From Holdemanella biformis DSM 3989 (lineage in GTDB: Bacteria; Bacillota_I; Bacilli_A; Erysipelotrichales; Erysipelotrichaceae): a DNA stretch of 64,000 bases. The DNA lies in NCBI RefSeq assembly GCF_000156655.1, contig NZ_DS996843.1:205941-269940 (forward strand), read 5' to 3'. Positions within the stretch are counted from its first letter, which is position 1. Each line of letters begins with the position of its first letter. Both the position numbers and the translations under genes were made by a program. This document shows positions 12,992-17,507 of the stretch, in pieces. The notes under the pieces were generated by a model, which saw only the letters and a list, made by a program, of their open reading frames with translations, searched no databases and had not been told where the DNA came from.

Positions 12992-14344
12992 TTAATCAAA
13001 CACCATCTTCTTTTTCTCAATTCGTCTTAAAAATACCCATCCCACAACACAAGATAAAACTTCCGTAATCACAAATGCATACCAAATCAAAGATACATCC
13101 CTATCATATTGAATGACAAGTTTTGAAAATCCCCAAGCCAAAGGTAAAATCAAAATGACTTGTCTAAGCAAGGATACAATCAAGGATTCCATACCTCCAT
13201 TCAAAGCTTGATACACACCTTGAAATGCGATATTTACACCCGCAAACAAAAAGCTAATGGATATGATTCGAACAGCACTGATGAAATATATTCTGGATTG
13301 TCCTGCATTAAATAGTGTCGCAAAAAAGTTTGGGAACAGTTCTGTAATTAGAGTACCCAAGACCATTAATACGATAGTATAGATTAAGCCATATTTAATT
13401 CCATCTTTAACACGCTTCTTATTTTGCATACCATACGAAAAGGCAATAATAGGTGTAATCGCATCTCTTAAACCGAATGCCATAAATAAGACAAATTGTT
13501 GTACTTTATAGAATAGGCCATAGGCCGTTTGTGCAGATGCATCAAATTTTAGAATTAAGTTCATCGCATATACCATGAATGACATCAATGCCTGGGCAAT
13601 TATGGCTGGAAGTCCAATGGAATAAATTTCTTTGATGATACGCTTATTTGGTTTCATATAAGTTATACCTTGATCAAATTCTTTATTTAAACGCATATGA
13701 AACACAACTAATAATAAAGCCGATAAAATTTGTCCAATAACTGTCGCATAAGCCGCTCCTTGTACACCTAAATTAAAGCCATAGATCAAGATAGGATCTA
13801 GAATCATATTGATTACGGCTCCTGCAACTTGTCCAATTGTAGAATATAAGGAGCGTCCTGTAGCTTGGAGCAGTTTTTCAAATATAGAAAAAAACACAAC
13901 GCCAAAGGATAATAGGCAACAAATTCTTAGATAGTCCTCACTCATCGATAATACAAGTGAATCACTTGTTTGAGAGGATATATAGGCTTTAATGCCAAAC
14001 AAACCGAATAATACACAAAGAACATAAATAACTGTAGCTAGAAACAAACCATTTCCGGCTACTTTAGAAGCTTTTTCACGATTTCTCTGTCCCAAAGTTC
14101 TTGCGAGTAAGGCGTTTACTCCAACACCTGTACCAATGGCTAAGGCCACCATCAACATCTGGATAGGGAAAACTAAGGTAAGTGCATTTAATGCGGCTTC
14201 ACTTCCTTCTTTCATATTTCCTACAAAGGCACTGTCAACTATGTTATAGACAGCTTGCAGGGCCATAGATAAAATCATAGGCACACCCATTTGAAGCATC
14301 AACTTATTGACTGGCTCATTTTTCATTTTGTTGTTTTCTTCCAT
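12992..14344 (-). CDS. MATE-family multidrug/cation efflux transporter
   Basis: An integral membrane antiporter of about twelve membrane segments, 450 residues, starting MEENNKMK behind AAGGAGG. Typical MATE features are [21 protein letters not shown] at the N-terminus and its mirror [17 protein letters not shown] in the second half. It is likely to export cationic compounds using a sodium or proton gradient; the true substrate is unknown. Two hairpins, each followed by a T-run, lie directly upstream, the nearer one 20-70 bases before the start. That suggests control by transcription attenuation (see the leader features). Confidence 0.9.
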
Positions 14345-14364: not shown

Positions 14365-14417
14365 AAAAAAGTGCATTACCTACATAAGTTGGACTTACGC
14401 TTTTAAGCAACACACTT
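14365..14417 (-). promoter_or_regulatory. Leader hairpin with T-run before the MATE gene
   Basis: Arms AAGTGTGTTGC and GTAATGCACTT pair over 11 bases with three G-U pairs and are followed on the minus strand by TTTTTTG, just before the AAGGAGG of the MATE gene. The loop holds GCGTAAGTCCA (14390-14400), shared with the next hairpin and, in altered form, with the leader at 15106-15162. This is a terminator placed before a gene, so probably an attenuator or riboswitch expression platform. Guanidine-IV (mepA-type) riboswitches precede MATE genes and are one candidate; I could not confirm that motif. Confidence 0.6.
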
Positions 14418-14428
14418 TACAAAAATAT

Positions 14429-14470
14429 AAAAAAGTAGCAGAAAACTGGATTTACGCTGTTTCCGCTACT
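14429..14470 (-). promoter_or_regulatory. Second leader hairpin / terminator with the same loop motif
   Basis: GTAGCGGAAA pairs with TTTCTGCTAC (ten base pairs, one G-T) around a loop holding GCGTAAATCCAG, followed by six T on the minus strand. It lies between the kinase-like gene and the MATE gene. It may end the first transcript or form a tandem copy of the MATE leader. The loop matches the neighbouring hairpin at nine or more of the core positions. Confidence 0.6.
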
Positions 14471-14518
14471 CGTTACGAAGTGATTATATTTTTATTTTTT
14501 TAATTTGTCAAAGTAAAA

Positions 14519-15085
14519 TTACATGGCTTTTTCAATTAATTCTACACATTTATCAATACCCAAAACACCACTGTCTAAACACAATTGATAGTTTTTAGCA
14601 TCCGCCCATTTACGATCTGTGTAATATTTATAGTAAGCAATACGACGTTTATCCTTATCTTTGATTCGTTTGTCTGGCGCAAATTCATTTTGTCCATAAA
14701 CCGATACAACACGATTCTTTCGATATTCAAAGTCTGCATGAATAAATACATTCAATACGTCTTTACGATCACGAAGAATATAATCTGAGCATCTTCCTAC
14801 AATGACACAATTTCCTTTATCGGCTAATTCACAAATTACATTTCTTTGTGCAATATATAATTCGTCCGATAAGTTATATCCATAATTATTCCAAATAAAA
14901 CCAAATGTACTTGTGCTTGATGCATCTTCCCCATTTTCTTCAATATACTCTTTCGCAAAACCACTTTCTTGAGCAATTTGTTGCACAATTTCATAATCGT
15001 AATAAGCATAGCCTAGTTTTTCAGCTAATTTCTTGGCAATGGTTCTTCCGCCACTACCAAATTCACGTGTAATTGTAATTATCAT
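14519..15085 (-). CDS. Cytidylate kinase-like family protein
   Basis: A 188-residue P-loop nucleotide kinase-like protein starting MIITITREFGSGGRTIAKK, behind AGGAGGTATCTT. The glycine-rich loop GSGGRT, the DYEIVQQIAQESG segment and VIVGRCSDYIL are characteristic of the cytidylate_kin2 family, which differs from true Cmk and has no established substrate. It has its own structured leader (15106-15162) and a possible leader peptide further upstream. A loop motif shared with the MATE leaders suggests that both genes answer to the same signal (inference). Confidence 0.85.
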   Translation of the reverse strand: MIITITREFGSGGRTIAKKLAEKLGYAYYDYEIVQQIAQESGFAKEYIEENGEDASSTSTFGFIWNNYGYNLSDELYIAQRNVICELADKGNCVIVGRCSDYILRDRKDVLNVFIHADFEYRKNRVVSVYGQNEFAPDKRIKDKDKRRIAYYKYYTDRKWADAKNYQLCLDSGVLGIDKCVELIEKAM

Positions 15086-15105
15086 AAGATACCTCCTAAT
15101 ATACA

Positions 15106-15162
15106 AAAATCGAGCCTTCTACAACTGGATTTATATCCCGCAAGAAGACTCGTTGTTGTAGA
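15106..15162 (-). promoter_or_regulatory. Attenuator with alternative antiterminator pairing before the kinase-like gene
   Basis: On the minus strand CGAG-T-CTTCT pairs with AGAAG-G-CTCG and is followed by ATTTTTG, then the AGGAGG of the kinase-like gene. The loop holds ATAAATCCAGTT. Immediately upstream, TCTACAAC is a perfect eight-base complement of GTTGTAGA, which overlaps the 3' arm of the terminator. The two folds exclude each other, the hallmark of a riboswitch or attenuator. The sequence TTTTTGTATATTAGGAGG also resembles TTTTTTGTATTTTAAGGAGG before the MATE gene. Confidence 0.65.
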
Positions 15163-15178
15163 CATTTTACCAAAATTA

Positions 15179-15214
15179 TTAAGTTTTTGTAAGTAATGGT
15201 ACAGCATTTTTCAT
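15179..15214 (-). CDS. Possible 11-residue leader peptide MKNAVPLLTKT
   Basis: A short frame behind GAGGTGATGGTGT lies upstream of the attenuator. It is inside a potential stem formed by GTGATGGT and ACCATTAC. It could be a translated leader that feeds into the attenuator or a chance frame inside an aptamer. Confidence 0.3.
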   Translation of the reverse strand: MKNAVPLLTKT

Positions 15215-15295: not shown

Positions 15296-15324
15296 AAAAA
15301 GAATAGAATTTTTCGACCCTATTC
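15296..15324 (-). terminator. Terminator of the DUF4143 gene, a near-copy of the pyrE terminator
   Basis: The hairpin GAATAG...CTATTC with a T-run follows the last codons of the DUF4143 gene and includes its stop. Its 24 bases (15301-15324) match 16830-16853 at the end of pyrE except for one base. The two copies flank the DUF4143 gene as direct repeats. Confidence 0.85.
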
Positions 15325-16695
15325 TAAATCATCACTCAACGCTGCACATATCATATATGGTGGAATACAAATTATATTATCTTTCCTTGCAAAATTTTTT
15401 GGATGAACAATATATGGTGTTGCGATTTTCTTACCAAATAATTCTTTAAATTTATCTAAAGACGTAGCTGAATAATTCTTTGAAGATTTTACTTCGATTG
15501 GAAATACTTTTAGATTTGTTTTACTCTCATTTGATAATAAGAAATCAATTTCAATATCATTTCTATGCTTCTCCTTATTATACTTTGTATAAAAATAAAG
15601 CTTTTTCCCCATAGATGTAATCATTTGCGCAATCATATTCTCATACAACATACCTTTATTTAATGATAATTTATCATTCATGATTTGTTGATACAATCTT
15701 GAAGAACTCAACTCATTTTCACTAAATGCCAAACTCACTAATAATCCTGTATCGCCCATGTAGCATTTCACATAAGAATCGTCTTTATTTAACGCAAATC
15801 CTACATTTGGATCTGTACACCTGTAACATAAATTACAAATCATAGAATCATCTAGCCAAAATAAAGGCTCATCATACCTGTCAAAACTACGATTAGATTC
15901 TCCCAGTTCAGATAAAACAACCTTTTTTTCATGTGTAGATAAATATCCTGGGATATTCTCAAACAAAGCTGACACTCTTGAATTGTATCTTTTAGCGGCT
16001 TTCTTGATATCATCACGATAGAGTTCAAGAATATCTCTTTTTTCCACATCCGCCGCATAAAAATCTTTATTTCCGTTCTTATAAGCTTTTAATGCCTGTG
16101 GCATTCCCCCAACCAGCAAATATTCTTTAAATAAATACATAACCTTCGCATGCATTTTTTCATCTAAAGGCTTTTTCTTATCCCAACAATTTTTAATATA
16201 TTCAAATAATAATTCCTCACCCATATAGATCATGAACTCTTCAAAATCTACAGGGTACATACGAATCTTTCTTTCCTCGGATGGCAATGTAATATTTTCA
16301 ACATTTTCTTTAATCGAAATCAAAGAACCCGTTTCTAAATAATCATACCGTCCATCTTCAACCAAATATTTAATGGCTTGTCTAGCTTGAGGAAATCTTT
16401 GTATTTCATCAAATATAATCAACGATTCTCTTTTAAATAATCGAACATTCATTTCTAAAGAAATAATTTGAAAAAAAGTATCTAAATCGTTTAAATTATC
16501 AAACGCTTTAATAATCGTATTTGAAGCCTTGTTGAAATCAATTAAAACATAAGATTTGTATTCGTTTCGACCAAACTCTTCTGCCACTGTAGATTTTCCA
16601 ATACGCCTAGCCCCTTCAATCAACAATGCTTTGGATCCATTTGTTTCCTGTTTCCATTTCAAAAGTTTAGAATAAATCTTTCTTTTTATTTCCAT
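15319..16695 (-). CDS. AAA ATPase with DUF4143 (ATP-binding protein)
   Basis: A 458-residue protein starting MEIKRKIY behind AAAGGAGATATCGCG. Walker A is GARRIGKST (about 28-36) and Walker B is SLIIFDEIQRFPQA (about 90-103). The C-terminal DUF4143 half contains IEIDFLLS and PIEVKSSKNYS, a PD-(D/E)xK-like nuclease core. Members are common orphan genes in gut bacteria and have no agreed role. Here the gene lies between pyrE and its neighbours, flanked by duplicated terminators. A 34-bp repeat array covers its promoter, suggesting self-regulation and recent insertion (inference). Confidence 0.87.
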   Translation of the reverse strand: MEIKRKIYSKLLKWKQETNGSKALLIEGARRIGKSTVAEEFGRNEYKSYVLIDFNKASNTIIKAFDNLNDLDTFFQIISLEMNVRLFKRESLIIFDEIQRFPQARQAIKYLVEDGRYDYLETGSLISIKENVENITLPSEERKIRMYPVDFEEFMIYMGEELLFEYIKNCWDKKKPLDEKMHAKVMYLFKEYLLVGGMPQALKAYKNGNKDFYAADVEKRDILELYRDDIKKAAKRYNSRVSALFENIPGYLSTHEKKVVLSELGESNRSFDRYDEPLFWLDDSMICNLCYRCTDPNVGFALNKDDSYVKCYMGDTGLLVSLAFSENELSSSRLYQQIMNDKLSLNKGMLYENMIAQMITSMGKKLYFYTKYNKEKHRNDIEIDFLLSNESKTNLKVFPIEVKSSKNYSATSLDKFKELFGKKIATPYIVHPKNFARKDNIICIPPYMICAALSDDLE

Positions 16696-16719: not shown

Positions 16720-16749
16720 ATTATACACCATACATACCGCAGTGCGCAA
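16720..16749 (-). promoter_or_regulatory. Promoter of the DUF4143 gene, -35 inside a repeat
   Basis: TATAAT at 16720-16725 and TTGCGC at 16744-16749 are separated by 18 bases on the minus strand. The -35 box is part of the nearest copy of the 34-bp repeat, so a protein bound to the array would cover the promoter. Confidence 0.6.
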
Positions 16750-16821
16750 AGTATTTTAGTACGAAATATACCGTAGTGCGCAAAGTATTTTAGTAAGAAA
16801 TATACCGCAATGCGCAAAGTA
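16734..16821. repeat. 34-bp tandem repeat, 2.6 copies, upstream of the DUF4143 gene
   Basis: Units begin at 16734, 16768 and 16802. Each contains ACCGCAGTGCGCAAAGTAT with one or two changes between copies, followed by an AT-rich spacer. The spacing is exact. The array fills the gap between the pyrE terminator and the DUF4143 promoter. Confidence 0.9.
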
Positions 16822-16825
16822 TATA

Positions 16826-16853
16826 AAAAGAATAGAATCTTTCGACCCTATTC
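16826..16853 (-). terminator. pyrE terminator
   Basis: On the minus strand GAATAG and CTATTC form a stem around GGTCGAAAGATT and run into TTTTTATA. The stem includes the pyrE stop codon. A near-identical copy ends the DUF4143 gene. Confidence 0.85.
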
Positions 16854-17507
16854 CTTAGCTCCATATTCTTCATAATATGCATCAATTCTTGATTTTAATT
16901 CAGGATCTAATTTATCTCCTAAATATTCAATCACTTCTGGCATTGATACAATAGCAGCTGTTGGGAAACCATATAATTCACTCACTTCTGTTAATGCTGT
17001 TTTTTCACCTTTTCCCTTTTCGTTACGATTTAAAGAAACCATCAATCCAACGATTTCAACATTTGCTGCACCACGAACCTTTGGTACTGTTTCTTCCATT
17101 GATTTTCCAGATGTCGTAACATCTTCAATCATAACGACACGATCACCATCTTGTAGTTTTGTTCCTAAGAAACTTCCCTTATCAGCTCCATGATCTTTTT
17201 CTTCTTTACGATCTGAACAATAACGAACTTCCATTCCATATAAATGATCTAATGCGATTGTCGTCGCAACAGCCAATGGAATTCCCTTATATGCAGGTCC
17301 GAATAATACATCGAAGTCTTTACCATATTGATTAACGATGGCCTTTGCGTAATATTCACCTAATCTTTTTAACTGGTTACCTGTAACATATCCACCCGCA
17401 TTCATAAAGAATGGGGATTTACGTCCTGATTTTAGTGTAAAATCCCCAAATTTTAACACTTTAGATTCCAACATGAAATCAATAAACTCTTTTTTATATT
17501 GTTCCAT
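16848..17507 (-). CDS. pyrE: Orotate phosphoribosyltransferase
   Basis: Transfers the phosphoribosyl group of PRPP onto orotate to give OMP in de novo pyrimidine synthesis. The 219-residue protein has the PRPP-binding motif VVMIEDVTTSGKS near residues 120-132, FGDFTLKSGRKSPFFMNAG near the start, and FGPAYKGIPLA. GTGGAGG precedes the ATG. It is monocistronic here, divergent from the CBS protein, and ends in its own terminator. No other pyr gene is in the window. Confidence 0.96.
   Translation of the reverse strand: MEQYKKEFIDFMLESKVLKFGDFTLKSGRKSPFFMNAGGYVTGNQLKRLGEYYAKAIVNQYGKDFDVLFGPAYKGIPLAVATTIALDHLYGMEVRYCSDRKEEKDHGADKGSFLGTKLQDGDRVVMIEDVTTSGKSMEETVPKVRGAANVEIVGLMVSLNRNEKGKGEKTALTEVSELYGFPTAAIVSMPEVIEYLGDKLDPELKSRIDAYYEEYGAKE

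Follow-up and report, generated by a model that had tools for sequence, protein, structure and literature searches.

In the DNA of Holdemanella biformis DSM 3989 that we analyzed (a stretch of 64,000 nucleotides, hereafter the window), a kinase-like gene and a MATE exporter gene lie in line on the minus strand, and their leaders raise the question of whether both genes are controlled by the same regulatory RNA and, if so, by which kind. A first-pass annotation had noticed three hairpins followed by U-runs in these leaders and had read them as a ligand- or factor-sensing attenuator shared by the two genes. The three hairpins, each with a U-run next to it, are indeed present on the minus strand, one before the Cytidylate_kin2 gene and two in tandem before the MATE gene, and their loops are related as it had claimed (GCGUAAGUCCA, GCGUAAAUCCAG and AUAAAUCCAG). 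The features discussed below are the following, with bit scores from the covariance model R2 described in the next section:

12992..14344, minus strand: MATE exporter gene (450 aa; Pfam PF01554, 5.3e-37; NCBIfam TIGR00797)
14365..14418, minus strand: terminator of copy B, U-run 14370-14365
14382..14421, minus strand: motif copy B, in tandem before the MATE gene (R2, 39.9 bits)
Within copy B, minus strand: P1, AAGU 14417-14414 / ACUU 14389-14386, with GUG 14413-14411 and UAAGUCCA 14397-14390
14429..14471, minus strand: terminator of copy A, 5' arm beginning at the conserved GAG, U-run 14434-14429
14439..14479, minus strand: motif copy A before the MATE gene (R2, 37.9 bits)
Within copy A, minus strand: P1, AAC 14474-14472 / GUU 14446-14444, with GAG 14471-14469 and UAAAUCCA 14454-14447
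14483..14511, minus strand: MATE-leader promoter predicted from sequence (TTGACA 14511-14506, 17 nt, TATAAT 14488-14483)
14522..15085, minus strand: Cytidylate_kin2 (PF13189) kinase-like gene (188 aa; Pfam 5.8e-53)
15105..15152, minus strand: intrinsic terminator of the kinase leader, CGAGUCUUCU 15152-15143 / AGAAGGCUCG 15120-15111, U-run 15109-15105
15118..15159, minus strand: motif copy before the Cytidylate_kin2 gene (R2, 30.5 bits)
Within the kinase-leader copy, minus strand: P1, ACAAC 15156-15152 / GUUGU 15125-15121, with GAG 15151-15149 and AUAAAUCCA 15134-15126
15164..15192, minus strand: predicted kinase-leader promoter (-35 TTACAA 15192-15187, 17 nt, -10 TAAAAT 15169-15164)

The MATE gene belongs to the matE subfamily, the runner-up NCBIfam model, MepA, scoring under its cut-off. 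All three hairpins fold better than shuffled sequences (z of -3.3, -3.3 and -2.6), and the loop word RTAARTCCAR has exactly three matches in the 64 kb, all within these leaders; since three or more matches were also reached in 19 of 100 shuffles, this word is by itself weak proof. It is homology, not the loop word, that proves the three leaders: the covariance model gives them 30-40 bits (they belonged to its own training sequences), while the next best match in the window reaches 13.7 bits. An eight-base antiterminator pairing had also been proposed, and it exists in the kinase leader between UCUACAAC (15162-15155) and GUUGUAGA (15125-15118), but its outer part is probably untranscribed because, given the -10 box TAAAAT (15169-15164), transcription likely begins at about 15158-15156; what is kept in homologues is the in-register pairing of ACAAC (15156-15152) with GUUGU (15125-15121). 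The resemblance reported for the stretch that leads from the U-run to the ribosome binding site is real for MATE copy B when compared with the kinase leader and is not a family feature.

Homologous leaders and their consensus hairpin

The first pattern that was searched, made of the loop, the U-run and the ribosome binding site and applied to 245 genomes from the family, returned true relatives mixed with chance matches in coding sequence, most of which were removed by the covariance model. Nine leaders revealed a pairing between the bases immediately before a conserved GWG and those immediately after UCCA (AAC/GUU, AAU/AUU, AGC/GCU and AGU/ACU). At E<=0.1, a covariance model built from these nine (R1) picked out 49 of the 295 genomes searched in the order, its weakest matches being due to chance. 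A second model (R2, 48 members) matched in 30 of 346 genomes of the class, several other families included, and all 19 genomes with matches in a sample of the phylum fell in that same class (the share of sampled genomes from outside the class is not given). An exact pattern run over the GTDB collection found 112 stretches, of which 80 were retrieved, in records labelled Bacilli, Clostridia, Ruminococcus, Blautia and Synergistaceae; since most of these records are metagenome assemblies, an odd lineage label could reflect mis-binning. Three matches lie in a Blautia-labelled genome and two in a Synergistaceae-labelled one, up to three copies being found per genome, and the strict pattern had no match among viral contigs. 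A new model from homologous leaders, which the first-pass annotation had called for, finds homologues, and the family now comprises 149 sites (135 distinct sequences) in gut bacteria. Homologous kinase leaders occur in loci L003, L071 and L117, and tandem copies before MATE genes recur in L080, L065 and the same-genus L057.

The consensus is a hairpin of about 40 nt, P1(YAAY)-GWGYN-P2(GC..)-loop-(..GC)-RUAANNCCA-P1'(RUUR), in which the 5' tail forms a covarying helix with the hairpin's own 3' side. P1 is formed by Y5 A6 A7 Y8 with R37 U38 U39 R40, with extra pairs in many members, and P2 by G14-C27, C15-G26 and further pairs. Between them lies an internal loop (GWGYN // UAANNCCA) with the 5' strand G9 W10 G11 Y12 N13 and the 3' strand R28 U29 A30 A31 N32 N33 C34 C35 A36. 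Conservation is not confined to the stems: this loop is the most conserved part, with about 12-13 conserved bases, G9, G11, A30, A31 and C35 being invariant across the 149 members and Y12 facing a purine at 28 in every case (U-G, C-G or U-A). The position of G9 and G11 opposite C34 and C35 suggests extra pairs, for which covariation is no test because these bases almost never vary.

Both stems covary. In the nine leaders, which had been chosen without a P1 requirement, 82% of P1 cells are paired, against 22-56% in slid registers. P1 was confirmed independently in the 80 genome loci because the pattern that selected them left its 3' strand free: pairing reaches 98% over its four core pairs there (0-44% in slid registers), and the innermost position holds U-A in 58 loci, C-G in 18 and U-G in 4, with no mismatches. 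P2 also covaries (C-G 46, U-A 20) and provides an independent confirmation, since only P1 went into the models and P2 was used neither in building nor in searching. In an ungapped alignment of 69 members, 87% of P1 and P2 cells are paired, against 28-47% in slid registers, and double changes fill 106 cells where 44 would be expected from shuffling; shuffle controls overstate significance because the members are related, a flaw of which the slid controls are free. A -10-like hexamer lies a few bases upstream of the motif in 64 of the 69 members, and, going by these predicted promoters, the hairpin is the 5' end of the mRNA, which would start a few bases past the -10 box.

Overlap of the hairpin with intrinsic terminators

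The conserved internal loop doubles as part of an intrinsic terminator in 63 of the 69 members that were scored, and it does so in two ways. The terminator takes the 5' strand of the hairpin in 35 members (5' arm GWGYNGC.., with the loop and the P2 5' strand) and the 3' strand in 28 (5' arm GCGUAARUCC), which makes two distinct terminator designs on one hairpin; among the remaining six, five were left unclassed and one has no detected U-run. In the kinase leader of the window, the conserved GAG falls inside the 5' arm. From the base pairs involved and the predicted U-runs, hairpin and terminator cannot coexist in either design, and an ON switch is predicted from this exclusion. Moreover, the terminators of the three window leaders fold at -15 to -23 kcal/mol, whereas the conserved hairpin with P1 enforced reaches -4.8 in the kinase leader and -1.1 in MATE copy A (the two for which it was computed), so that the default state should be OFF where the comparison was made. 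As in a terminating ON riboswitch, a conserved, covarying, aptamer-like hairpin lies 5' of an intrinsic terminator with which it is exclusive, and in different lineages it precedes several gene families that lack homology to one another. The shared sensing attenuator of the first-pass annotation is therefore strongly supported, loop and stems being conserved and covarying across many genera. What that annotation had named as refuting it, a lack of covariation or a conserved stem with a variable loop, was not observed.

We consider it likely that these leaders form a new family of cis-acting transcription-control RNAs and most probably a small-molecule riboswitch that switches ON. The comparison itself establishes the family, its covarying stems, its invariant loop, the terminator overlap, the 5'-end position and the gene associations; ligand binding, the ON direction and promoter activity are our inferences. 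RNA polymerase would first make the hairpin of about 40 nt at the very 5' end (P1, internal loop and P2), which would be fully formed by the time transcription reaches the terminator's 3' arm. A ligand that stabilizes the hairpin would withhold one strand of the internal loop from the terminator, which would then be blocked, and the polymerase would read on into the downstream gene, be it for an exporter, a kinase or a CarD-like protein; with no ligand bound, the terminator would invade the hairpin and transcription would stop. For the MATE gene of the window, two complete copies in series would be expected to give a steeper response.

Downstream genes and the kinase-MATE link

Labelled by similarity to exemplars, the genes behind the 149 sites encode MATE exporters (80), CarD-like proteins (38), MATE-kinase fusions (3), MFS transporters (4), DUF2798 proteins (3), proteins like the RNA polymerase alpha C-terminal domain (4), ABC proteins (2), kinases (2) and a small unnamed family (2), with 11 sites unassigned, some of which lie at the ends of contigs. 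At L074, counted as ABC, a nearer ORF looks acetyltransferase-like by eye, and the CarD identity is clear in one exemplar (Pfam CarD_TRCF_RID and CarD_C) and weak or absent in others grouped with it by similarity. The alpha-CTD-like proteins (about 72 aa, weak Pfam match; L124, L162, L167 and L204) are, with the CarD-like genes, a second RNA-polymerase-related target. Two motif copies precede genes named by eye in metagenome-assembled genomes (MAGs): a REP-type transposase-like gene (L268:1500-2100, Synergistaceae-labelled) and a gene for a small microcompartment-like protein (L261:1500-1900, Blautia-labelled).

The kinase-like partner, which had been judged unusual, turns out to be a recurrent one: kinases that have their own motif copy and adjoin a MATE gene are found elsewhere, and MATE-kinase fusions carry the leader as well. 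A MATE gene lies within 1.5 kb of 11 of 30 kinase loci. An 11-kb contig of genome G054 (L117:508-10028) holds three MATE-kinase pairs and two motif copies, one before a kinase and another before a MATE gene, as in the window, and a TetR-like gene adjoins one of these pairs; in G012, a leader-bearing kinase is directly followed by a MATE gene. Long ORFs that combine MATE with a C-terminal Cytidylate_kin2 domain stand behind a motif copy in L107, L108, L161, L197 and L210, and Pfam confirms the domains in L161 and L197, whose MATE types are clearly different.

What the RNA may sense and how it relates to known systems

Because most targets are exporters, several of them unrelated, we guess that the RNA binds a small molecule that is toxic or related to stress. 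A fuller proposal, to which we give about even chances, is that a new class, ranging over Bacilli and MAGs labelled Clostridia and Synergistaceae, senses one probably toxic small molecule of the gut and controls a detoxification set made up of MATE exporters, an accompanying or fused kinase and a CarD-like protein; the kinase may modify the compound. Against a small-molecule riboswitch, the target genes single out no one metabolite, and CarD-like RNA-polymerase-binding proteins are odd beside exporters.

The same leaders could be explained without a small molecule, by an RNA-binding protein that would hold the hairpin and internal loop and thereby block the terminator, much as BglG and LicT act on RAT antiterminators. 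RATs are short imperfect hairpins that overlap a terminator near the 5' end of the transcript, as is this motif; a small conserved internal loop would suit a protein-binding site too, and several genes per genome (up to three copies) may share such an element. The RAT sequence presumably differs from the motif. RATs control PTS genes, whereas no PTS sugar genes are found among the identified targets of the 149 sites, no candidate antiterminator protein is linked to motif sites, and a trans-acting factor would have to be present in every lineage with the RNA. The CarD-like protein, the sole recurrent regulator-like target, was rejected for this role: no CarD-like gene was detected in the window's genome (G000) or in a congener (G001), and since both have the RNA, such a protein is not an obligate factor. 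Protein-dependent antitermination is the main rival reading, possible but rather unlikely. That the copies are ordinary constitutive terminators of similar sequence that sense nothing is very improbable: each has a strong intrinsic terminator, but if that were all, the loop bases would not be conserved, P1 and P2 would not go on covarying within a structure that disrupts the terminator, and the terminator would not draw on one loop strand in some members and on the other strand in others.

Guanidine-IV, which the first-pass annotation had put forward, and the related Gd4v riboswitches resemble the motif in their terminator-based ON logic, their MATE and GNAT targets, the conserved bases within a terminator hairpin and their occurrence in gut bacteria, where Gd4v is enriched (PMC9788692). 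They require, however, an upstream P1 hairpin and a loop-loop (kissing) pseudoknot, whereas the motif is one hairpin near +1 that leaves no room upstream and whose 5' tail pairs with its own 3' side. In the Rfam scan that had been recommended, the window had no match at gathering scores and nothing credible at E<=10, and 20 homologous loci had no match at E<=1 (the presence of the guanidine-IV model in the library is unconfirmed). No SMR/Gdx or transaminase (PRK07324) gene is among the identified targets of the 149 sites (11 unassigned), and an SMR gene is present in 2 of 59 genomes of the order. Guanidine-IV and Gd4v are hardly credible and were rejected on architecture, and guanidine is an unlikely ligand.

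The HMP-PP (thiS) riboswitch also has conserved bases in a terminator-like hairpin, which its ligand is thought to preclude (PMC8632094), and is in this sense a terminator-embedded aptamer like the motif; it has another consensus (no Rfam match) and serves thiamin genes instead of exporters and CarD-like genes, and it differs from the motif hairpin, which serves two terminator geometries. A possible functional parallel is the yjdF azaaromatic riboswitch, which senses diverse aromatic compounds (PMC4793209); it has no sequence or structure match to the motif in the Rfam search and mainly a single target gene. The motif works like a terminator-overlapping riboswitch, as judged from its sequence, and fits no class tested.

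Three other candidates were set aside. A leader peptide was dropped because no recurring start codon lies inside the hairpin in the sequences read and GUGUAG alternates with GAGUAG. Mimicry of 16S rRNA, noticed afterwards, was also set aside: a conserved 16S stretch contains CAACGAG and UAAGUCC, two parts of the consensus, in the opposite order, but positions 32-33 vary (GU, AU, UU, AA and GA). A PyrR-like loop is seen in one member only (L031/L073).

Such a motif is found neither in Rfam 15 nor in the main texts of the open-access papers searched (an unnamed listing in a subscription paper or a supplementary table is possible), and those papers contain nothing on its sequence or on CarD, MATE or kinase leaders; the family is apparently undescribed so far. 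Orphan riboswitch classes with so much covariation and so many gene families are uncommon, and the motif has only about 40 nt. Knowing the ligand would reveal a compound pumped out by many uncultured gut bacteria and would show what the Cytidylate_kin2 kinases that accompany MATE pumps or are fused to them do. With terminators arranged in two opposite ways on a single hairpin, the family also offers a natural comparison for how riboswitches acquire expression platforms.

Elsewhere in the window, three near-identical repeats (ATACCGYARTGCGCAAAGTATTTTAGTA...) at 16722-16822 lie just before an AAA_14/DUF4143 gene and are perhaps its promoter or operator region, and nearly the same short hairpin (AGAATAGAATYTTTCGACCCTATTC) follows two neighboring genes at 15297-15325 and 16822-16855, like a repeated terminator.
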